In this document: piece after piece, positions 1 to 19,452 of the stretch
How the letters are laid out: the number at the start of each line of letters is the position of its first letter
Numbering within the stretch: the first letter of the stretch is position 1
Origin: a virus
Virus record (IMG/VR): IMGVR_UViG_3300008262_002934
Location: 1 to 24,467 of that record
Length of the DNA: 24,467 nucleotides
Direction: 5' to 3' (one strand)
Made by a program: the position numbers and the translations under genes
Notes under the pieces: model-generated
Seen by the model: only the letters and a program-made list of their open reading frames with translations
The model's database searches: none
What the model was told of the DNA's origin: nothing

Positions 1-2696
1 CCATGTTGTATACTACGAATATTTGTTTCTAATTCTGGAAAATGTCTAACGATACTATCCCACATGATAGCACTGTTCTTTTCATTTGCTTCAGCAGCCA
101 TACGTGCAAGGTCTGCTAATTGTGCAGCCGCTCTTGCTTTTCTATAACTTAATTTTCCTGGATTAAGTCCAGGAGGCATGACCATTGGATCGTTTGGATT
201 TTGCGGATCCATTTCAATTGGTGATTCTGAAATAGTTTTCTTAGCTGCCTTTGCTCTTTCTTTTTCCAACCATTTGTCAGATTTGGCTTTGTCTTTGGCA
301 ATTTGCTCTTCTGGTGACAATGGTTTATTTTCTTTACGTTTAGACAAACCTGCTCTCGCACTTGCTGTATTGGCACGAGCTTCGTTAGTCTCATCACCGG
401 CTGCTTTTATTGCGGCATTGCGTTGATTTAATCTTCCAATGGTACTATTTGGATTGACATCTAGTGTTCCTGATTGAAATTTATCTCTTACTGGTTGTAA
501 AGGTGATTTAGGGTAAGCAGTATCACCGTACTTTACTTTATCATTTACAGGACTTTGGCTTTGGAAAGCTGATTTTAATTTGTCTAAGAATGATTGTTGT
601 TCTTCAAAAACACCGTATGCGTGAACAATTGATTCAGACAGATTCATTTTCTTTGCTTCTTTTTCTAAAGAAGCTTTTCTTCTTGCTAGTTCTGCTTTTA
701 ATTCTGGATCTTTATGTGTATGCTTGTCCATCTGGATATCTTGCAGAGCCTTACGTTTTGCTGTTAAATCTTCTTTGTCTCGTAGTTTTGATTCATTCAT
801 AGAATCTACTTCCTTACTAATAGGAGCCTTTCCTGGAACTTTTTTAGTTACTTGAACATTTTGTTGTTGAGGTGCTTGAGGCTGTTGTTTAACAGGAGCT
901 GTTTGGGCTGTTGGTTTTTCATCTTTAATCCCCAAACCTTCTCTTGTTGCTTGATATAATGTTTTACCGTTTACAACGATATCAGGACCAACTCCTGTAT
1001 ATTGCTGGAATTTTTGCTCGTCACCATCGGTGGCTGCTTTTCGAGCTTTAGTTCCACTAAAGCCAGTCACTCCCTCTGAATCAGGATCACGCTGACCGGC
1101 ACTTTCAAATTTAATAACAACATGCTCTCTTGCACCAGCTGGATCAGTACTGCGTATGGGTCCACTGTTCCAACTGCTTAGTATTTTTTCAATGCTGCCT
1201 TTTTCTTTGCCTAATCTATCACTGCCTGCAACAAAAATCATGTTGCGATATCCTTTACTATATAACCAATTTGCCGCATATATTGGGTTTTGTACAAAAT
1301 CTTGAACAATATGATCTGCGGAGTTTGGATATATTTGTGAAACAAATTGTGCTTTTACATTTGGATCTAAAGGATCATCTTGTCCAACACTGTTACTCAA
1401 AAACACAAATGCTTGATCACCACCAAGTTCTAATGTTTTATTAATAACAAGTCCGTGTCCCATTGTTGGAGGGTTCATACGACCAAAACAAAACACAGCT
1501 AACGGCATTTTGCTCTTAGCTTCAATTTCTTCATCTGGTACACGATGTTTAGCAAAATTAGCACGACTAAAACCTAAACGATCAATTAATTTTAGTTTAT
1601 CTTTGCCTGAACCAAATACGTAACCTTCGTGTGCATTAACACCGTCAGTTATAGCAATAATTTCACTACCTTGTTGTTGTGTGTCAATTTGTTGTTTGAT
1701 ATGGGTTTTTAATTCTGTAATTGCGGCCCACATGGTCCAAATTCCTAATAGTCCTGGACCACCACCTTGTTCTTGATATAACCAACCGTCTTGTTTAGTG
1801 CCCAAAAATTTATTTTGTGCAGTGTCATTTAAACGCTCTTTTAGAAATTCTAAAAATCTTGGAACAATATTACCAGATATATCATCCTCTTCAAGCATAC
1901 GTGTGATAAAAGGTCCCATAGCAGTTATTACTGCTTTACCCTTCATTGCTGTTAGATCTGAAATAAATTTATCAACGGCTGTTCTGTGTTGACTAATAAT
2001 AGCTTTAGTTTGATTTAATAGAGCTGAATTAATTCCAACTTTTGGTTTGTCTTTCATTTCACCTACAAGAAAAACAATTCCTTCATTTTCTCTTAAACCT
2101 TTTAAGCCAATTAATGGTTGATCTGATTGACCAAGACCAGGAATAAAAGTATGTACCGCAATACCACCAATACTACGTGCAATCTGGTCGCTTAATGTAT
2201 TACCACGTCCAGGAGTATCATCAATTTTAACACGGTATTCTACAGTGTTAGGTTTAAAAACAAAGTATCCATCAGAAGTTTTAGGAGTACCAGTCCACAT
2301 TAGGTCTCCCATCCAATATTGGTCTTTTACATTGGGAATAATTTTATCTAATGTAGGACGTAATGCGCTTTCTGTTTCCCAAAGATTACCACGATTAGCT
2401 TCTCTAGATATATCATAATCTTTAATGGACATAAATTCCATAGCACCTTTGACTACTTTGTCATACATGTGCTTGTCCATGAAAACAAGTTTACCCGTAC
2501 TATCTCTACCAAATACTACTGCTGGAAATCCGTCCCATTTAACGCTAATTGTACTTGGATCTTTTTGTAAGCTGGATAAATCTGCCAAAACTCTGTCAGC
2601 ACCTGCACTACCTTGTGAAATAATAAGGTCTTCTGGATGGTCAATACCTTCCATAATAATATTTTTAGCAGGTTTAAACAGTTCAAATAAGTTCAT
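1..2696 (-). CDS. Ligase-like (KxDG) domain fused to HxGH-type nucleotidyltransferase, with capsid-targeting-like N-terminus; partial
   Basis: The frame is open from ATG at 2696 to the left edge (898 codons, C-terminus missing). Residues 1-16 look like a T4 capsid-targeting peptide (Glu5, hydrophobic pair, then I-M-E before Gly17). Residues 51-64 carry V-K-W-D-G with downstream F-G-R-D, matching motif I of covalent nucleotidyltransferases (ATP-dependent ligases and capping enzymes); K53 would be the adenylated Lys. Y-W-M-G-D-L at 127-132 resembles ligase motif III. Residues 404-414 read FGRMNPPTMGH, the phosphate-binding HxGH-type motif of cytidylyl/adenylyltransferases, and GFSGTKAR at 545-552 matches the family's second signature (ISGTxxR). 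After about residue 560 the chain is a charged, Gln/Lys/Ala-rich linker. The N-terminal region resembles the phage family DUF6267 from memory. It is the last visible gene of the 5654-1 cassette, 17 nt after its neighbour. Substrate is unknown; the ligase assignment is less secure than the HxGH one. Confidence 0.75.
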   Translation of the reverse strand, partial: MNLFELFKPAKNIIMEGIDHPEDLIISQGSAGADRVLADLSSLQKDPSTISVKWDGFPAVVFGRDSTGKLVFMDKHMYDKVVKGAMEFMSIKDYDISREANRGNLWETESALRPTLDKIIPNVKDQYWMGDLMWTGTPKTSDGYFVFKPNTVEYRVKIDDTPGRGNTLSDQIARSIGGIAVHTFIPGLGQSDQPLIGLKGLRENEGIVFLVGEMKDKPKVGINSALLNQTKAIISQHRTAVDKFISDLTAMKGKAVITAMGPFITRMLEEDDISGNIVPRFLEFLKERLNDTAQNKFLGTKQDGWLYQEQGGGPGLLGIWTMWAAITELKTHIKQQIDTQQQGSEIIAITDGVNAHEGYVFGSGKDKLKLIDRLGFSRANFAKHRVPDEEIEAKSKMPLAVFCFGRMNPPTMGHGLVINKTLELGGDQAFVFLSNSVGQDDPLDPNVKAQFVSQIYPNSADHIVQDFVQNPIYAANWLYSKGYRNMIFVAGSDRLGKEKGSIEKILSSWNSGPIRSTDPAGAREHVVIKFESAGQRDPDSEGVTGFSGTKARKAATDGDEQKFQQYTGVGPDIVVNGKTLYQATREGLGIKDEKPTAQTAPVKQQPQAPQQQNVQVTKKVPGKAPISKEVDSMNESKLRDKEDLTAKRKALQDIQMDKHTHKDPELKAELARRKASLEKEAKKMNLSESIVHAYGVFEEQQSFLDKLKSAFQSQSPVNDKVKYGDTAYPKSPLQPVRDKFQSGTLDVNPNSTIGRLNQRNAAIKAAGDETNEARANTASARAGLSKRKENKPLSPEEQIAKDKAKSDKWLEKERAKAAKKTISESPIEMDPQNPNDPMVMPPGLNPGKLSYRKARAAAQLADLARMAAEANEKNSAIMWDSIVRHFPELETNIRSIQH

Positions 2697-2713: not shown

Positions 2714-3547
2714 TTAACTTTGCGGGAAAACTTGACTTAACTTTGCTGGATCATTCTTTAGAGCGTCTCTAATTCCAGAAATGCTAGACATATCTCTTGC
2801 AGTGGCTTGTGGGCCTAATAGTATTTTTGCAATATCGTTTTTGTTGATAGCAACTACTTGATTGGTTTCTCTATCTACTAGTCCCCTGTCTGGACTGTAC
2901 TGTAGGCTTCCTTTTTCCTCTCCAGTTTTTGGATCTACAAAAGTAGATCTACTGGCTAGTTTAACTAATGTTGGATAAACGTCCGTGAATAGTTGTCCGC
3001 CTTTCATACCTGGGTCTCTAGTGAAATCGTGTGCGTGTAATTCCCATGCGCTCTCAGGACGAACAATCAAATCTACTGAATGACTTTTACCGTCAGCACT
3101 ATATTCTACAGTAAGTGTTCCTGGATCAGTCGGAAGCCCATTTTGAGTCATGTAAGATGCTAACGCCCATTTACTGGCAGCTAATTCTAATCTTGCTTTT
3201 TTATTTGGATCAGCTAAAGTGTTAGCCATGGCTTTTGGACCAAGTGGTTTGGGACTTGCTTTATTATATTCTTCTATGTTTGGTGGAAAACTTCTTAAAA
3301 GATTTTCTGGATCTATCATAATGTCAATGTCGCCGCTGTCATCTCTCCCACCGCCACCATACGGATGTTCAGGATCAAAACTACCAGCACCACCAGCAGT
3401 CCAACCGGCCTTTAGTTTAGCTTTTTTCAGTATTGGATCTAAAATAGATTTGGCTTTTAGAAAGGCAACTTTGTCTACTCTAGATATTTCAATACCTTGC
3501 TTGGCAAGCCTTTTTCCACTTTCAAATAATAGTTCAGTTATTTTCAT
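2714..3547 (-). CDS. Pol-beta-type nucleotidyltransferase with capsid-targeting-like N-terminus
   Basis: 277 aa. The start MKITELLFES fits a T4 capsid-targeting peptide, with L-F-E at 7-9 as a possible prohead-protease site. The catalytic signature of the DNA polymerase beta nucleotidyltransferase superfamily is visible: G-S at 55-56, then a Gly-rich stretch, D-I-D at 73-75 and a third acidic strand S-V-D-L-I at 157-161 (D159). Such enzymes transfer NMP from NTP to RNA, protein or small molecules; the target cannot be read here. The ATG overlaps the upstream stop as TAATG, so it is translationally coupled to the 125-aa gene. The second half (from about residue 165) has no domain I recognise. 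Confidence 0.78.
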   Translation of the reverse strand: MKITELLFESGKRLAKQGIEISRVDKVAFLKAKSILDPILKKAKLKAGWTAGGAGSFDPEHPYGGGGRDDSGDIDIMIDPENLLRSFPPNIEEYNKASPKPLGPKAMANTLADPNKKARLELAASKWALASYMTQNGLPTDPGTLTVEYSADGKSHSVDLIVRPESAWELHAHDFTRDPGMKGGQLFTDVYPTLVKLASRSTFVDPKTGEEKGSLQYSPDRGLVDRETNQVVAINKNDIAKILLGPQATARDMSSISGIRDALKNDPAKLSQVFPQS

Positions 3548-3924
3548 TATACACCGTACTTGTTCTTTTTAATTTTTGCCACAGGACTAACAGTATTGGT
3601 AGTTTTTAATTCTTGGCTCTTTAGATCTCCGTGTGTTAAATCTTTCCAATTTGCTCCCACTGCCTTATAGGCTTTTTTAAGCATTTCTTGTTCTTGAGAT
3701 GTATAAGGATGAGTAGTCTTGCTCTTATCAGTCCAACTTTTAGCATCTATTTCAGGATCGTTTGTTCCATCTGTACAGGCAAGCGCCATACCTAGACGAT
3801 ATGAAACATAATCGCTATTTCGTCTTTCACCATCAGTATATAAATTTATACCAGCAGCCGACTGGCCCTGTCTATTGGTGATTTTCTTTTCTGATACTTC
3901 AGTAATAAATTCTTTTGCTCTCAT
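3547..3924 (-). CDS. Small protein with capsid-targeting-like N-terminus, function unknown
   Basis: 125 aa. MRAKEFITEV opens it, with Glu5, the hydrophobic pair F-I, and I-T-E at 7-9 as a likely prohead-protease site. The rest is hydrophilic and Lys/Thr-rich, with a short central segment around YRLGMALACTDG and a basic C-terminus. No catalytic motif is visible. It sits between the two nucleotidyltransferase genes, joined to both by TAATG stop-start overlaps, which argues for co-translation and a related role. I do not recognise a named family; an internal head protein is the best inference. Confidence 0.7.
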   Translation of the reverse strand: MRAKEFITEVSEKKITNRQGQSAAGINLYTDGERRNSDYVSYRLGMALACTDGTNDPEIDAKSWTDKSKTTHPYTSQEQEMLKKAYKAVGANWKDLTHGDLKSQELKTTNTVSPVAKIKKNKYGV

Positions 3925-4937
3925 TAGAATAATCCCTTAACCATTTCAAGACCACTTAAAATCTTTTGTTTGTCTGCCTCAGCACGTGCCTGCGCCTCTG
4001 GTGTTGTTGCTTTATCACGCTTTTTGCCTTGTACATCTATCATAGCTTTTTCTTCGTATCGTTGTAAAAATTTATTTAAGAAATCCTGTCCTGATGAAAA
4101 ATTGCTTAAATCATTTTTACCAAACATGCCATTTGCTTGGGCACTGGCAGCAAAGCCTTTAACAGAGTTTACTAATGTAACAATTTTAACATCATTTATA
4201 TTATTGCCAGGAAATTTTGACAACAACGGATCAATTTTAGGATTATTAATACCCATTCTCTTTGCAAGATATTTAAATGTATCTAATACAAACGTTTCTG
4301 GTTCAATAGTAACAGTTATTAGTTGTGTTCCTTTTTGCTTACTAAATGGAACACGTTGATCATCAATAACTTTTAATTGTACTCCAGCATGTTGTATACT
4401 CATGTCTAATAATTCACCAAATACACTAAACATATTACCAAATAACATGCCTTTAACACCACGCTCTGGAGTTACACGTGCCGCACCCCATTTGGCTAGT
4501 TTACCTGGGTGCCACATAAAATCTACTTGGACATATTGATCACGTCCAACTTGTATGATAGGATGTCCTGGTTTACTTTCACTAGTATCTATATAATTAA
4601 CTTGACCACTTTTTGCAAATTGATCAGTTAAATCATTCCAGTAACTGGTAAATTGTGCATTTGTTTCGTTTTCTTTGATTGGCGCAATCATTTGAAGATC
4701 AATGTCGCCGTAAATGTTATCTGGTTTTTCTACTTCGTCTTGTTCATAATATGCAGTACTACCTGTTGGTTTACCACGCTGTATTGATGGTATACCTTGT
4801 GAATTAGTGTAATTATTGAAGTCCTTAACAAATTGATCTACCACACCAAGAGCCACACGTACTACAGCAGGTGTTAACTCTGTACTCTGTGTTTTTGTGG
4901 TATCCCACCCGCCTTCAAATAATTCTTTAATACGCAT
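3924..4937 (-). CDS. Pol-beta-type nucleotidyltransferase with capsid-targeting-like N-terminus
   Basis: 337 aa. The N-terminus MRIKELFEGG has Glu5, L-F and a short L-F-E (6-8) cleavage-type site. Residues 59-60 (G-S), 78-80 (D-I-D within Y-G-D-I-D-L) and 139 (D in V-Q-V-D-F) form the three-part active-site signature of the Pol-beta nucleotidyltransferase superfamily, better conserved here than in the 277-aa protein. The C-terminal half is probably helical and includes a charged Lys/Ala/Glu-rich end (about 295-330). It starts 8 nt after the peptidase gene. The two nucleotidyltransferases in this cassette differ around the catalytic residues, so they are not a recent duplication. Substrate unknown. 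Confidence 0.8.
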   Translation of the reverse strand: MRIKELFEGGWDTTKTQSTELTPAVVRVALGVVDQFVKDFNNYTNSQGIPSIQRGKPTGSTAYYEQDEVEKPDNIYGDIDLQMIAPIKENETNAQFTSYWNDLTDQFAKSGQVNYIDTSESKPGHPIIQVGRDQYVQVDFMWHPGKLAKWGAARVTPERGVKGMLFGNMFSVFGELLDMSIQHAGVQLKVIDDQRVPFSKQKGTQLITVTIEPETFVLDTFKYLAKRMGINNPKIDPLLSKFPGNNINDVKIVTLVNSVKGFAASAQANGMFGKNDLSNFSSGQDFLNKFLQRYEEKAMIDVQGKKRDKATTPEAQARAEADKQKILSGLEMVKGLF

Positions 4938-4945
4938 ATTGGACC

Positions 4946-5332
4946 TTATTCAAATACTTCTGGAAACTTCTGACCAAAATTACGCATTATTATTCCTGCC
5001 ATTGCATTGGCTTCATTTTCTTGTGGGCTACCAGTATCGCCTACATTATCATCTTCTAACTGTCCTTCTAAATCTTGTTTATAATGTGTTAGTTCGTGTG
5101 CTAATGTTCTAAAAATATCTACTGGGTGTCTATCTTTGGTTGCCAATATAATTGATTGTTTTCCTGGCTGATAACCCCCAAAGGACTTGTGATCAATTGA
5201 GTATTGTTTATCGTTAACAAGATTTATTTCAGGCAACGATTCAAGACCTAATTCTTCAGAACAATGTTTTAGAAACATGTTCAATAATTCAGGCTTTATA
5301 ATACTCTCAATCAGTAGTTCTTGAATTTTCAT
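4946..5332 (-). CDS. Small HExxH zinc metallopeptidase with capsid-targeting-like N-terminus
   Basis: 128 aa. After a leader MKIQELLIES (L-I-E at 7-9) comes a compact domain with H79-E80-L-T-H83 in the context TLAHELTHYKQ, a typical zincin helix, and downstream E-N-E-A-N-A (105-110) that can supply the third ligand Glu, as in gluzincins. This predicts a zinc-dependent peptidase of minimal size. The gene overlaps the upstream 115-aa gene by 26 nt. A protease in a group of probably packaged proteins could act on the host after injection or inside the prohead; the sequence does not decide. Metal site well supported, biological target unknown. Confidence 0.78.
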   Translation of the reverse strand: MKIQELLIESIIKPELLNMFLKHCSEELGLESLPEINLVNDKQYSIDHKSFGGYQPGKQSIILATKDRHPVDIFRTLAHELTHYKQDLEGQLEDDNVGDTGSPQENEANAMAGIIMRNFGQKFPEVFE

Positions 5333-5654
5333 CTTTCTTTGGGCCTTTGGTATTGATAGTTAATAAATTTCCTGCCAGTTCTTTTCGCATTTTAATTGGA
5401 AACATTTTGTTAGGATCTTTTTTAAACTCTTTTTCTTTATAGAACTTTAAGCATCCTTGATTGATTGCTTTCATGAAGTCTTCCGCTTCAACATCTTTGC
5501 CTTTTTTAATTTTTGACACAAGGGGAAGAATGTGTTCTTTGTATAGTTCATCATCGTCAAGAATAAAGCCCATTAAATCTTTTTGTAGATCGGTCTCAAT
5601 CTTAGCGTCATCATCATCCGAGTTTGCTTTGCTGAAGAATTCAAGTAATTTCAT
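5307..5654 (-). CDS. Small acidic/basic protein opening the capsid-targeting-like cassette
   Basis: 115 aa, first gene of the block. The start MKLLEFFSKA shares Glu5 and the following F-F with the other five proteins but has no clean (L/I)-x-E site after it, so cleavage is doubtful. An Asp run follows (12-16), then a helical, Lys-rich body. No known domain recognised. A weak AGAG ribosome site precedes the ATG. A late-promoter-like ATAAATA lies 56 nt upstream, so the cassette probably starts here. Confidence 0.7.
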   Translation of the reverse strand: MKLLEFFSKANSDDDDAKIETDLQKDLMGFILDDDELYKEHILPLVSKIKKGKDVEAEDFMKAINQGCLKFYKEKEFKKDPNKMFPIKMRKELAGNLLTINTKGPKKDENSRTTD

Positions 5655-5709: not shown

Positions 5710-5716
5710 TATTTAT
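5710..5716 (-). promoter_or_regulatory. Candidate T4-type late promoter (ATAAATA)
   Basis: On the minus strand the intergenic sequence reads AAATAAATACAT, close to the T4 late -10 box TATAAATA, about 56 nt before the ATG at 5654. It is outside coding sequence, which distinguishes it from most TAAATA strings here that overlap TAA stop codons. The position suits late transcription of the 5654-1 cassette. Confidence 0.38.
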
Positions 5717-5738
5717 TTTAAAACCTACGGGATTGAAA

Positions 5739-6210: not shown

Positions 6211-6918
6211 TTAAGTGTTTACTTCGCTTTTTAGTACAAATTCTTCTGACTTATTCAAATGATCGCCCATAATCATTAGAGCCATAGCAGCCATTTTTTG
6301 ATCTTTGGCATAAAAATAATTTCCATACATCATAGGATAAGTTTCACCTTCGAGTATTCTTTTGGTACTTTTTGGAATGTGTATCCTGCCATCCTCAAAA
6401 TTTTTAGCCCAATTTAAAAAAGAGTCCATATTTTCTTTTTTGAACTCACCATTTTTAAAATGTACTTTGTACCTGTAACCGGCTAAGGGAAGACGTTCAC
6501 AAATAATTTTATTTTTATTAGTTAATAGAAAATCTGCTTGCTCAGTGCCAGCAGGTCGATGTATTTCAACAACATATTTTTGTAATTGAATAGATACTTC
6601 TTTAATTAATTTCTCACTATTTGTAAAAATAGCTGTACTCCCGCCTTCAGTCCTAATTTGATTAGGAGCTAGAGTTAAGATGTCCTCAAGTTTATATGCT
6701 ATTTCAATTAAATTATGCCTATTAGAAATTATTGTCTGTGTTGAAGACTTAAGCCAAGTACTAGAACTATTGTACATTGGCTTAATAGTTTGTATGTATT
6801 CAATGCCACGCCTGTGGAGAGAACTCAACCCTCCACATTCTATGACAATTTTAAAAAGCCATTTTTTATAAAATAGCTTTTTAGTTGTACACTCTTTAAT
6901 CTTCAATGATTTCTTCAT
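6211..6918 (-). CDS. Protein of unknown function after clpA
   Basis: 235 aa from ATG at 6918. An upstream in-frame start at 6966 exists but would lie deeper in clpA, so 6918 (MKKSLKIKE) is preferred; it overlaps the clpA stop by 23 nt. The N-terminus is very basic. A central segment holds K-I-I-C-E-R-L-P-L-A-G-Y-R-Y-K-V-H-F, suggestive of a beta-hairpin with conserved aromatics, followed by a helical C-terminus. No known catalytic motif or family is recognised. Position suggests it rides on the dnaJ-def-clpA transcript. Confidence 0.65.
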   Translation of the reverse strand: MKKSLKIKECTTKKLFYKKWLFKIVIECGGLSSLHRRGIEYIQTIKPMYNSSSTWLKSSTQTIISNRHNLIEIAYKLEDILTLAPNQIRTEGGSTAIFTNSEKLIKEVSIQLQKYVVEIHRPAGTEQADFLLTNKNKIICERLPLAGYRYKVHFKNGEFKKENMDSFLNWAKNFEDGRIHIPKSTKRILEGETYPMMYGNYFYAKDQKMAAMALMIMGDHLNKSEEFVLKSEVNT

Positions 6919-9172
6919 CTTGAACTGGTAAACTTGGTGCAATTGGTAGTGGATCCATGTATTCAAATACTAGATCATTGTTTACATACGCTACCTGTAC
7001 AATACCACCGTTAATTAATCGACCAAATAAGATTTCTCTACTTAGAGGACGCTTAATTTTATCATCAATTACTCGTTGCATTGGTCTAGCACCCATCTTA
7101 GGATCAAATCCTTTTTCAATTAAGAATTCTTTAGTGCTATCAGTCAATTGTACAAACACATTTTTATCAGAAATTAGAGAATTCATTTCTTTGATAAATT
7201 TGTCTACTACCTTAATCATAACACTATGTTCAAGTTTCTTAAACTTAATAATGCCGTCCAATCGATTACGAAACTCTGGAGCAAAGAATTTATTGACAGC
7301 TTCGTCAGTTGCACCAAGTTTGTCTTGACTACCAAAGCCAATGTTCTTCTTTTCACCATCAGCGGCACCCAAGTTACTGGTCATAATAAGAATAGCGTTA
7401 CGTGCATCTGCTTTCTTGCCATTGGATCCAGTTACAAACCCGTTATCCATCAGTTGAAGTAATACGTTGCTTACATCTGGGTGTGCTTTTTCAATTTCGT
7501 CTAACAATAATACACAATTTGGATTTTCTTGTAGTGTAGTAATTAACTGTCCTGCGTTATCTTCGAAACCAACATATCCTGGAGGAGCACCAATAAACTT
7601 AGCAACAGAGTGCTTCTCTTGGAATTCACTCATATCAAAGCGAACAAGTTTAATACTCATTTTTTCAGATAGCACTTTGGCAGTTTCTGTCTTACCACAA
7701 CCAGTTGGGCCTACAAATAAGAAACTACCAATGGGTTTATTGTGTGATTTCAAACCAGCTTGTGCAATATAAATCTTGTCTAGTAATGATTCAACTGCTG
7801 TATCTTGTCCAAATACTTCAGACTTAATGCTTGTTTCTAAATCATGTAAGACTTTGGTTTCTTTTGCGGCAATCTGTTCTAACGGCAGACCTGTAATCTT
7901 TGCTACTTCAAATACGATCTCATCGTGATCAACTATACCACCTTCTTCATCTTTAACTTTAAAACGTGCTGATGCACAATCTATCAAGTCAATGGCCTTG
8001 TCGGGTAGCTTTTTATCACTCATATATTTGATAGAATATTTGACACTATCAACAATAGCTTGATTGGTGATTTTAACACCATGATGTTTTTCGTAATACT
8101 TACGAAGACCTTTTAAAATCTTAATACATGTTTCTTCATTAGGTTCGTCAATAGTTACACGTTGGAATCTGCGCATCAACGCACGATCCTTTTCAAAGTG
8201 TTTGCGATATTCTTCCCATGTAGTACTTGCAATAACCTTAAATCCGCCTTTGGCTAAAGCAGGTTTTAACATATTTGCCATATCATTACTTTGACCACTG
8301 CTTGCACCTGCACCGTTCATCATATGTGCTTCGTCAATAAACAAAATTGCTTTTTTACGTTTTTGGATAGCAGTAAGTACAGTTTTTAGTCGCTCTTCAA
8401 AGTCACCGCGATATTTGGAACCAGCAAGTAATGAACTAATGTCTAACGTGTAAACTGTGTGGTCTTGGATAAACTTAGGAACATTGCCTTCAACAATTTT
8501 ACGTGCTAATCCTTCTGCAAGTGCAGTCTTACCTACACCTGGATCTCCAATTAACATAACATTGGCTTTGTGACGTCTTGCAAGTACTAATTGCATCTCT
8601 TCAATTTCTTTGTCACGTCCAATAACTGGATCAATTTGTTTTTGCTTGACCTTGTTGTTTAGATTGGTACAGAAATTATTAATGATAGCTTCTAGTTTGT
8701 TCTCAGGAACATTTTCGTTTTCTTCGCTCAATTGATTTAAATTTTCTTTGTTTAAGTAATCAATAAATTTGTCTTTTTCAATGCCAGAACTACGTAGATA
8801 GAAGGCAGCATGACTCTTCTTTTCGTGCAATATGCTTAGGAAACAATCTAACGGTTCAATGGTAGTTCTTCCAGCAAATAGTGTTTGTGTAAATGCTCTA
8901 TTGAGCATTCTTTCTACGCTGTTTGTTTTCTTTGGCCTAGAATTTAAATTTACGTCAACAATACTAATAAGTTCGTTGTTAATATAGTTTTCTAATTTAG
9001 AAACTAGATCATCAACTTTGATGCCATAGTCAGTTAGAATACGATTAAAAGTTGGATTACGAACCATACTATAGAGAAAATGCTCTAATGTAATGTATTG
9101 GTGTTTATGGTTTATGGCTGTAAGTACAGCATTTTCAAAAATTTGTTCTAATTCTTCATTTGGTTCAAGCAT
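6896..9172 (-). CDS. clpA: ClpA-like AAA+ unfoldase
   Basis: 758 aa, equal in length to E. coli ClpA. An N-terminal Clp_N repeat domain (about 1-145) precedes two AAA+ modules. D1 has Walker A GDPGVGKT (209-216) and Walker B F-I-D-E (280-281). D2 has Walker A GPTGCGKT (488-495) and Walker B L-L-D-E-I-E-K-A (D558-E559). I-G-F at 611-613 in D2 matches the IGL/IGF loop that docks on ClpP, so the protein should couple to the host ClpP; no phage clpP is seen here. Its role would be unfolding chosen host or phage proteins for degradation. It overlaps def by 8 nt. Confidence 0.95.
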   Translation of the reverse strand: MLEPNEELEQIFENAVLTAINHKHQYITLEHFLYSMVRNPTFNRILTDYGIKVDDLVSKLENYINNELISIVDVNLNSRPKKTNSVERMLNRAFTQTLFAGRTTIEPLDCFLSILHEKKSHAAFYLRSSGIEKDKFIDYLNKENLNQLSEENENVPENKLEAIINNFCTNLNNKVKQKQIDPVIGRDKEIEEMQLVLARRHKANVMLIGDPGVGKTALAEGLARKIVEGNVPKFIQDHTVYTLDISSLLAGSKYRGDFEERLKTVLTAIQKRKKAILFIDEAHMMNGAGASSGQSNDMANMLKPALAKGGFKVIASTTWEEYRKHFEKDRALMRRFQRVTIDEPNEETCIKILKGLRKYYEKHHGVKITNQAIVDSVKYSIKYMSDKKLPDKAIDLIDCASARFKVKDEEGGIVDHDEIVFEVAKITGLPLEQIAAKETKVLHDLETSIKSEVFGQDTAVESLLDKIYIAQAGLKSHNKPIGSFLFVGPTGCGKTETAKVLSEKMSIKLVRFDMSEFQEKHSVAKFIGAPPGYVGFEDNAGQLITTLQENPNCVLLLDEIEKAHPDVSNVLLQLMDNGFVTGSNGKKADARNAILIMTSNLGAADGEKKNIGFGSQDKLGATDEAVNKFFAPEFRNRLDGIIKFKKLEHSVMIKVVDKFIKEMNSLISDKNVFVQLTDSTKEFLIEKGFDPKMGARPMQRVIDDKIKRPLSREILFGRLINGGIVQVAYVNNDLVFEYMDPLPIAPSLPVQDEEIIED

Positions 9173-9671
9173 AATGTTTTACCTTCTTTGATTTTTTAAC
9201 AGCCAGAGCCCATTTTAACTGACTAAGTCTATCTTTAAAAACTACTCCGTTTAAATGGTCCATTTCATGTAAGAAACAAACACAGTTATACCCTTCAAGT
9301 TTATCTGTTTTCTTTTCTCCATTCTTATCAAAGTACTCAGCAACTATCCATGATGGTCGCTTAACATTAGCGTAAACTCCAGGAAAACTCAAACATCCTT
9401 CTTCTAGCATACGTAAATCAGTACTGCAATCAACAATAACTGGATTGAATACTGCAAAACTATTTTCAGGCATAGAAACATGTCCCATGGTAAACATTCT
9501 AGTTTTGATACCTACTTGCGGAGCCGCAAGTCCAATCCCATTGTTAGCGAACATGCAAGCCAGCATGTCTATTTCTAATTCTTTAGGATCCATTATTGGA
9601 TTTTCAAAGTCAAAATCTGGCATGACTTCATCTAATATTGGATTTGGATATTTTATTATTGTTAATGCCAT
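9165..9671 (-). CDS. def: Peptide deformylase
   Basis: 168 aa. All three deformylase motifs are present: G-I-G-L-A-A-P-Q (45-52), E-G-C-L-S (91-95) and H-E-M-D-H (135-139), giving metal ligands C93, H135, H139 and catalytic E136. It removes the N-formyl group from nascent proteins. Unlike some short phage forms it keeps a tail of about 25 residues after the third motif, ending in a basic stretch. It sits between dnaJ (8-nt gap) and clpA, in what looks like a protein-maturation operon. Confidence 0.95.
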   Translation of the reverse strand: MALTIIKYPNPILDEVMPDFDFENPIMDPKELEIDMLACMFANNGIGLAAPQVGIKTRMFTMGHVSMPENSFAVFNPVIVDCSTDLRMLEEGCLSFPGVYANVKRPSWIVAEYFDKNGEKKTDKLEGYNCVCFLHEMDHLNGVVFKDRLSQLKWALAVKKSKKVKHYA

Positions 9672-9679
9672 ATTAATAT

Positions 9680-10546
9680 TTAAATTTTATTTTTTATTTG
9701 CTCAACTAAATCAAGAACTTCTGCTGACAAGTGTGTAGGAATTTGTATATTAACTCTTACATAAAGTTTTCCTACATTGCCTTTATTATCTTTCATACCT
9801 TCATTTTTTAATCCAAGGGTAGTTCCGGCTTGTATTCCAGGTGGAATAGTAACTTCAAGTCTTCTACCATCCAACGTGATAAATGCTATACTTGTACCTG
9901 TAATTGCTGAAAAACAATCTACCATTACATCTCTTAATAAATTCATTCCTTCTCTAACAAATGCAGGATGTGGCATGACATTGATATTTACTAAAAGATC
10001 GCCAGGCGGAAGCCCAGCATTTGACCTATCACCCATGCCCTCATATCTGATAGTTACCCCATTGTCTACACCTTTAGGGATTTCTATTTTAATAGACCTT
10101 ACGTTATTACCAGGATAAGTTAATTCTAACTCTTTAGTAACCCCTGTATAAACTTCTTCTAAACTAACATTTAGATTAATATTAAGAGATTTATTTTTTC
10201 TAGGAGGTTGGTTACCCCATTGCGGGCCACCAAAGTTAAATCCAAATCCTCTTAAAATATCATCCATGTGCGGATGACCACCAAAATGGAATTCAAAAGG
10301 ACTACCGCTACTATGGAAATGCTGTCCCTGTCGTTGGTTTGGATTGAGTGGATCAATTCCTTGATCTACCATCATACGTTTGTCATTGTCGCTCAATATG
10401 TCGTGAGCTTCGTTTATTTCTTTAAATTTACCTTGGTCGCCCCCGCGGTCAGGGTGATGTTTCATAGCCATTTTTCTAAAGGCTTTTTTTATATCATCCT
10501 GCGTTGCTGTTTTTGGTACGCCCAATATTCCATAATAATCTTTCAT
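9680..10546 (-). CDS. dnaJ: DnaJ/CbpA-like Hsp40 co-chaperone
   Basis: 288 aa from ATG at 10546; a TTG 18 nt upstream is in frame but falls inside the -10 element and is rejected. The J domain carries the H-P-D tripeptide at 31-33, followed by a Gly/Phe/His-rich segment (about 73-110) and two beta-sandwich substrate domains. There is no Cys-rich zinc finger, so it is type II (CbpA-like). It would stimulate host DnaK. No Shine-Dalgarno sequence precedes the ATG, and the promoter at 10553-10581 puts the likely transcription start at or next to the A of ATG. Confidence 0.93.
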   Translation of the reverse strand: MKDYYGILGVPKTATQDDIKKAFRKMAMKHHPDRGGDQGKFKEINEAHDILSDNDKRMMVDQGIDPLNPNQRQGQHFHSSGSPFEFHFGGHPHMDDILRGFGFNFGGPQWGNQPPRKNKSLNINLNVSLEEVYTGVTKELELTYPGNNVRSIKIEIPKGVDNGVTIRYEGMGDRSNAGLPPGDLLVNINVMPHPAFVREGMNLLRDVMVDCFSAITGTSIAFITLDGRRLEVTIPPGIQAGTTLGLKNEGMKDNKGNVGKLYVRVNIQIPTHLSAEVLDLVEQIKNKI

Positions 10547-19080: not shown

Positions 19081-19452
19081 TTATCCTGGAATGTTAAAAT
19101 TCATTGCACCAATGCTAACACGCATTGCGTCTTCTTCTGGTTTTTCATCACTTACTAATAGAAGTCCTTCATTATCCACCATATGGATTTTAATTTCTTC
19201 ACCTGTTTCTATTTCGTAAGCTATTGCTCTAGTCCAGCGCCCATGCTGAAGCAACACCCACTGACCAGGTTTGACATCTTTTTGATCATCACCTACAAAA
19301 ATAACTCTCGCCCATCTTGGATGTAGTCCGCTACTTTTTCCGTCATCAGATGTTAGTACAATGCCAGACTTAGTCTTGCTTTCACCAAAGTTCATGTCCG
19401 TAACAAAAATTTTGTCACCTAAAGGACGTAAATTGCCTTTAACTGCTGCCAT
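19081..19452 (-). CDS. GroES-like co-chaperonin (functional analogue of T4 gp31)
   Basis: 123 aa. R-P-L-G-D-K-I-F-V at 9-17 is the GroES beta-barrel start. The mobile loop (about 21-40) contains S-G-I-V-L-T with I31-V32-L33, the exact hydrophobic tripeptide GroES uses to bind GroEL. In T4, gp31 replaces GroES to fold the capsid protein; the same role is likely. At 123 aa it is longer than GroES (97), with extra sequence at the C-terminus. Ribosome site AGGAG. Confidence 0.88.
   Translation of the reverse strand: MAAVKGNLRPLGDKIFVTDMNFGESKTKSGIVLTSDDGKSSGLHPRWARVIFVGDDQKDVKPGQWVLLQHGRWTRAIAYEIETGEEIKIHMVDNEGLLLVSDEKPEEDAMRVSIGAMNFNIPG

Follow-up and report, generated by a model that had tools for sequence, protein, structure and literature searches.

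Analysis of a 24,467-nt stretch of viral DNA (the window) indicated that it carries a 128-aa zincin-like metallopeptidase gene headed by a short N-terminal leader and placed among neighbours that start with leaders of the same type. The reading that we put forward tentatively, at somewhat short of an even chance, is that this protein is an accessory zinc protease of a T4-type phage, which would be packaged, ejected and active on a host protein after entry. Its late expression, packaging, leader cleavage, ejection and activity are all steps that we infer. The features on which the argument draws are listed below, with a slash marking the predicted cut.

5710..5717, minus strand: late-promoter-like octamer AATAAATA, 55 nt ahead of the first cassette gene; putative promoter
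5307..5654, minus strand: first cassette gene, 115 aa, start MKLLEFFSK (half a leader, E/S site absent)
4946..5332, minus strand: zincin-like metallopeptidase gene, 128 aa, ORF open from ATG
5306..5332, minus strand: leader codons 1-9, MKIQELLIE; prohead-protease cut LIE/S predicted from the motif after residue 9
5084..5098, minus strand: HELTH, residues 79-83, in 72 of 72 rows; H79 and H83 putative zinc ligands, E80 putative base
5009..5020, minus strand: ENEA, residues 105-108; E105 (72 of 72 rows) candidate third ligand, E107 in 64 of 72
3924..4937, minus strand: Pol-beta-type nucleotidyltransferase, 337 aa, leader MRIKELFE/GGWD
3547..3924, minus strand: 125-aa protein, leader MRAKEFITE/V, missing along with the zincin in loci L144 and L152
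2714..3547, minus strand: 277-aa protein, nucleotidyltransferase-like motif GGAGS..DIDIMID by eye, leader MKITELLFE/S
1..2696, minus strand: DUF6267 and cytidylyltransferase protein that leaves the window, start MNLFELFKPAKNIIME/GIDHPEDL

Alignment of the zincin with its relatives gave 72 rows, most of them retrieved (among the matches listed) by the exact patterns DxxRTxxHE or ENEAxxxAG, so that conservation is inflated around these two patterns, and R68, D72, R75, H79, E80, H83, Q86, G98, G101, E105, A108, A112 and R117 were invariant. The relatives from B23, S-SRM01 and the Flavobacterium phages, which were found by tblastn and independently of the patterns, retain the same conserved residues. 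The dN/dS values against six orthologues were 0.03-0.10, dS exceeding 1 for all but one of them, and purifying selection on the gene is clear from these sequence comparisons. The preliminary description, which named no strand, had claimed a 128-aa zincin with H79-E80-x-x-H83, and this was borne out by the minus-strand ORF, the invariance of these residues and the predicted zincin core. Its claim of a downstream ENEA with a candidate third ligand also held, at residues 105-108, and could be narrowed: since position 105 is E in all 72 rows while position 107 differs in 8, E105 rather than E107 is the candidate.

An AlphaFold2 model of the 128-aa protein constructed from the 72 rows (mean pLDDT 89.4) showed, in order, an N-terminal helix, three strands, the helix bearing HELTH and a helix bearing E105. 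The pLDDT averaged 56 over residues 1-10, and block means were 91-98 over residues 21-80; in this model the core is a confidently predicted minimal zincin and the leader lies outside the fold. The predicted core thus holds HExxH with a third-ligand candidate on the subsequent helix, as is expected of a zincin. Foldseek comparison with solved structures gave SprT-like proteins, abylysin/selecase and IrrE as the top matches, none reaching E 0.001 (6mdx, on the SprT/Wss1-like side, E 0.014). The top 50 VIA-align matches have Z between 6.5 and 8.6, are spread across many zincins and single out no family. SprT/Spartan, Wss1 and selecase are among the nearest solved folds, with Wss1 and SprT-like proteins (Z 8.2 and 7.9) tied with YbeY, ERAP1 and other zincins, and a sequence match to them is absent.

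When ten window proteins were scanned against Pfam and PHROG, the zincin gave only matches below threshold (DUF6782, M91 and M78), and PHROG 87 'metallo-protease', at 1.7e-5, was likewise counted as sub-threshold. Membership of DUF6782 (17.8 bits against a gathering score of 27) and of Peptidase_M78 (IrrE/ImmA; 15.7 bits against 22, fold Z 6.8) was therefore rejected; these families and Peptidase_M91 share HExxH and a downstream E with the window protein, which falls under their curated cut-offs. The DUF6782 profile matches 40 of the 72 relatives at E <=0.01. A sequence profile search of solved structures returned 12 weak matches (E 0.035 to 0.26), ten of them on profile positions 18-61, which were read as chance.

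Scanning with the window protein found 15 related loci; 12 other contigs carry relatives that are 79-100% identical. A search of viral contigs with an 11-row alignment identified a relative in at least 590 of 599 pattern stretches, whereas 83 such stretches from bacterial and archaeal genomes yielded one relative. Among isolate phages, tblastn matched seven records, three Synechococcus and four Flavobacterium phages. As far as these scans reach, the family appears essentially viral. The counts that follow use the best 80 of the at least 590 relatives together with the 15 loci (95 loci), of which 82 were entered, the remainder repeating a contig or being close copies; for six of the 82 the ORF boundaries could not be set, and the final set comprised 71 distinct zincin ORFs.

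Among the matches listed, 28 of the 71 distinct ORFs stand alone (<=175 aa) and 43 are longer, so that the term 'minimal' in the preliminary description is apt for the window copy and does not extend to the domain generally. Pfam analysis of 38 longer ORFs, again among the matches listed, revealed cytidylyltransferase (8), zeta toxin (5), AAA_33 (5), DUF5661 (4), DUF6321 (3), amidoligase (3), ParB_N (2), NT5C (2), NTP_transf_2 (2), deaminase, LysM and SLT (1 each) and further domains besides. This repertoire, judged from the sequences, resembles that of polyvalent proteins. The zincins of those proteins (MPTase, Iyer et al. 2017), in the available text of PMC5512222, have the same minimal fold as our model, an N-terminal helix, three strands, the HExxH helix and a helix with E, and relatives of the window zincin are fused to ParB, nucleotidyltransferase, zeta-toxin and amidoligase domains. 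Polyvalent proteins need at least two disparate domains; many of the relatives qualify, whereas the window zincin is a single domain with its own leader. The phage-type MPTase clade has D three residues past HExxH, while the window family has Q86 in 72 of 72 rows.

Several relatives carry further features of their own. The NadR-annotated protein of Flavobacterium phage immuto (L019:4240-6960) has a second HExxH (RHEIEH) past the family zincin, and the IrrE-annotated gp108 of S-SCSM1 (L268:28373-28702) is a leaderless HExxH..ENEA protein with no virion label. A Cys motif, WSxKYKxSIxCxxPxGFSQxAHCxGxK, precedes the zincin in three different proteins (L255, L100:3450-4091 and L105:3005-5353).

In T4, according to the available text of PMC9026906, ten leader residues suffice for packaging, and the leader positions mapped in IPIII are 4, 7, 8 and 10. 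The zincin leader, one residue shorter, has the same residue types at positions 3, 6, 7 and 9 and matches the T4-spaced CTS pattern. We take these types in T4 to be hydrophobic, [FL], hydrophobic and E. T4-type CTS internal proteins are expected to start with a leader of 10-19 residues that has the mapped positions. At the DNA level, the zincin leader shares 26 nt with the 3' end of the ORF upstream, which puts a double constraint on this sequence. Four further cassette genes start in a similar manner: the DUF6267-cytidylyltransferase start MNLFELFKPAKNIIMEG is of the leader type, like MKITELLFES, MRAKEFITEV and MRIKELFEGG. The model of the 337-aa neighbour matched DNA polymerase beta with Z 10.7 over 180 residues (rmsd 3.7), and residues 1-9 were its sole segment with pLDDT below 50. 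In 78 newly fetched loci of this nucleotidyltransferase, 41 ORFs could be delimited and 35 of these start with a strict or lax leader. Because the leader recurs on unrelated neighbours, the 337-aa protein included, it is tied to no single fold.

In viral contigs, 114 stretches are related to the 337-aa nucleotidyltransferase, mostly with no zincin in the flanking sequence (loci L140-L217), and tblastn of the 337- and 277-aa proteins against isolate phages gave no match. A Flavobacterium phage fusion protein was considered as the two genes joined; direct blastp found no homology, and a make-up of that fusion from these genes is consequently not claimed. A 624-aa protein (L241:1951-3825) starts like the 337-aa nucleotidyltransferase (leader MLLRELFARNVTEGGWD) and also matches the 277-aa protein; it is probably, by these matches, the two types in one chain. 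Adjoining the cassette, window positions 6896-10546 encode a ClpA-like ATPase and, by eye, a peptide deformylase and DnaJ, which together with a GroES-like gene (19081-19452) would make a protein-handling set.

Three leader patterns (strict, lax and T4-spaced) were used for counting, all composed after the window and its relatives had been read. Of the 36 window ORFs that reach 60 aa, two have the T4-spaced pattern (0.09 expected), namely the zincin and the 277-aa protein; the pattern was also found in 3 of 227 ORFs of the 214-kb relative G003 (0.61 expected), 4 of 309 in S-SRM01 (0.92), 4 of 251 in S-SCSM1 (0.73) and 5 of 193 in S-CREM2 (0.43). With expectations from internal positions, strict leaders numbered 6 of 204 ORFs in G003 (0.38 expected; four lie in the zincin cassette) and 4 of 240 in S-SRM01 (0.35 expected). 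Among the matches listed, a strict leader begins 6 of 28 stand-alone zincins versus 4 of 43 longer ones, and a strict or lax leader 17 of 28 versus 11 of 43; of the opposite-strand ORFs in this count, 0 of 57 start with a strict leader. Many relatives are without a leader, among them 12 of the 30 stand-alone rows in the tree, and S-SRM01 gp257 is one such relative. The homologue in Synechococcus phage B23 does have a leader, with the start MNYKQFLRE/S and a predicted cut at RE/S. In a core tree constructed with the leader removed, the leader-bearing stand-alone rows require seven changes, at least five of them forced by well-supported branches; on this tree, both the leader and the fusion were acquired or lost several times.

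The virion proteome of S-CREM2 comprises 52 proteins in the available text of PMC10665884, and 51 were counted, one being split over two sequence pieces. Lax and strict patterns together, the lax one fixed before S-CREM2 was seen, matched 7 of 51 virion proteins versus 4 of 143 other ORFs (Fisher p 0.008), one of the seven being a baseplate protein whose start does not resemble a leader; the strict pattern by itself matched none in either class. The T4-spaced pattern, composed after the S-CREM2 leaders had been seen, matched 4 of 51 versus 1 of 142 (p 0.018). The virion matches include a SAM hydrolase (MKDFDSFLEE) and a cytidylyltransferase (MKNFSSFLTE), and a kinase start outside the counts, MKRFDAFLTE, is similar to the leader. 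Also outside the counts, the virion-listed and Cas9-annotated ORF12 (L269:7704-10313) has the leader-like peptide RFASFMAEAA some 18 residues from its start; packaging of a Cas9 would be a striking finding. In S-SCSM1 no enrichment was found among virion-labelled CDS, with either the strict (2 of 48 versus 2 of 203, p 0.17) or the lax pattern (4 of 48 versus 19 of 203, p 1), where labels were taken from the record, slightly above the 45 proteins in the available text of PMC9602691, and one CDS spanning two pieces was dropped. Its virion-labelled NMNAT starts MKSFLQFLKE and is related, by tblastn, to the DUF6267-cytidylyltransferase in the window. The S-SZBM1 virion likewise holds a cytidylyltransferase (PMC9146016, available text). 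These cyanophage virion enzymes, which are not proteases, thus have a leader-like start in S-SCSM1 and S-CREM2, and the authors of both studies warn, in the portions available, that such proteins might be carry-over on virions from purification (PMC10665884, PMC9602691).

Searches for the S77 protease (gp21 family) found it in 4 of 11 records, the four above 200 kb, and in 6 of 16 and 5 of 12 in further sets; Gp23 was found in 8 of 12 records, every one also with S77. The window itself is a fragment, and S77 is present in its large close relatives G003 and G006. In G003 the gp21 start is MSFLLRE/S, the scaffold start MLDAFKKLFE/S, and the capsid protein has LLE/G and LAE/S within its first 45 residues, so that by motif these head-protein sites are [LIF]xE/[SG] or near it and match LIE/S and LFE/G in the zincin leaders. 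The large zincin-bearing contigs G016, G019, G020 and G021 gave no detectable S77 or Gp23, and the G019 zincin protein bears a strict leader despite this. Taken together, the fold, the conservation, the leader calibration above and the matching cut sites lend good support to the earlier claim of a zincin that carries a packaging leader.

The zincin is optional. In L144 and L152 the gene order is a 118-aa gene, the 337-aa nucleotidyltransferase, a 279-aa protein and the DUF6267 protein, with the zincin and the 125-aa gene gone, and a profile search of these 30- and 74-kb, possibly incomplete contigs did not find a zincin elsewhere. The zincin profile matched 9 of 14 records, all possibly incomplete; G030 (216 kb) and G032 (179 kb), also possibly incomplete, have S77 and gave no zincin match. 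T4 internal proteins are poorly conserved, perhaps through an arms race with host restriction (PMC9026906, available text). Since these are likewise variable among relatives, an accessory zincin gene would by analogy fit cargo of the internal-protein kind better than a maturation enzyme. The window cassette shares with T4 IPI-III and Alt the [LI]xE cut motif, optional and varying cargo and, in its relatives, a gp21-type protease; the cargo differs, here being a zinc protease, and packaging, cut and ejection are predicted here from the genes.

In 11 of 12 loci, several of them near-copies, the first base of the octamer AATAAATA lies 62-70 nt ahead of the gene that opens the cassette, and this position is kept even where the flanks have diverged; we take the octamer to resemble T4-like late promoters. 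In G003, 24 of 28 NATAAATA lie within 150 nt before an ORF start (a raw count), and the genes behind them are probable virion genes and, by eye, also DnaK and DNA polymerase. In the window, NATAAATA occurs 3 times against 12.4 expected; all 3 copies lie near gene starts, which the shuffle test did not find significant (P 0.27). Since this test was not significant and the G003 genes are mixed, late expression of the cassette is only suggested.

According to the preferred reading, the zincin, encoded in the cassette of leader-tagged enzymes, would be produced late in infection, residues 1-9 would dock it on the prohead core, and a gp21-type protease of the phage would cut past E9 (LIE/S). The freed 119-aa protease would remain in the head alongside the DNA, be ejected into the next cell and cleave a host protein early in infection. 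Packaging via the leader is, on the sequence evidence, quite probable, and ejection, given packaging, would follow T4 precedent. Action after entry fits that precedent, by analogy, and the polyvalent-protein fusions. A host protein was chosen as the substrate because the zincin gene is present or absent independently of its larger neighbours; this is the least certain part of the explanation, to which we give slightly less than an even chance.

A serious rival, in our view rather unlikely, is that the packaged zincin acts inside the head, or directly upon entry, on multidomain phage enzymes packaged with it, trimming for instance the DUF6267-cytidylyltransferase. The domain is fused to cytidylyltransferase in 8 of 38 longer ORFs, to zeta-toxin/AAA in 5, amidoligase in 3, ParB_N in 2 and nucleotidyltransferase in 2 (among the matches listed), and autoprocessing by zincins has been proposed for polyvalent proteins, citing phage P1 DdrB (PMC5512222, available text); yet in the two syntenic cassettes that lack the zincin, the nucleotidyltransferases and the DUF6267 protein are retained. 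If the leader-like start were not a packaging signal, the zincin would act in the producing cell, as the leaderless relatives, the lack of enrichment among S-SCSM1 virion proteins and the four large zincin contigs with undetected S77 and Gp23 could suggest. We regard this as improbable, as the same leader type occurs on unrelated enzymes, leaders are enriched among S-CREM2 virion proteins and the head proteins of a relative have matching cut sites.

The preliminary description had also allowed for a head-maturation factor, that is, a protease for capsid or core proteins. The zincin would then reside in the prohead, where it is also predicted here, and a zincin of group 1 jumbo phages has been proposed for such a role (PMC7824862, available text). 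This option is disfavoured and very improbable, because the zincin is gone from two syntenic cassettes and was not found in the two S77-bearing contigs G030 and G032, and because close relatives already encode the gp21-type S77 protease. T4 itself is not known to need a head protease besides gp21. Least probable of all is that the zincin clears DNA-protein crosslinks on incoming or packaged DNA in the manner of Spartan/Wss1: the nearest folds include Wss1 and SprT-like proteins (Z 8.2 and 7.9; Foldseek 6mdx E 0.014), but they tie with YbeY, ERAP1 and other zincins, and a DNA-binding part is not seen in the zincin.

Both the leader route and zincins in injected proteins were known already; what is new is their union in a small stand-alone enzyme within a cassette of tagged enzymes, and searches of open-licence papers gave no title or abstract opening that names a leader-bearing stand-alone zincin in a phage head. 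A wider picture, which we hold to be doubtful, is a modular 'delivery cassette' of large T4-type phages in which one address peptide has repeatedly been joined to unrelated enzymes, the zincin being a mobile phage-specific module, either a tagged single enzyme or part of multidomain injected proteins, that would cut host targets and co-injected partners in the newly infected cell. If the proposed explanation is true, a readable N-terminal tag would tell, for the hundreds of unknown proteins encoded by large T4-like phages, which ones accompany the DNA into the cell. It would here single out an injected protease, a small enzyme whose target proteomics could find and which gives direct access to the first minutes of host takeover. 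It would also link a well-mapped packaging route to the polyvalent-protein zincins, which have been inferred from domain fusions.
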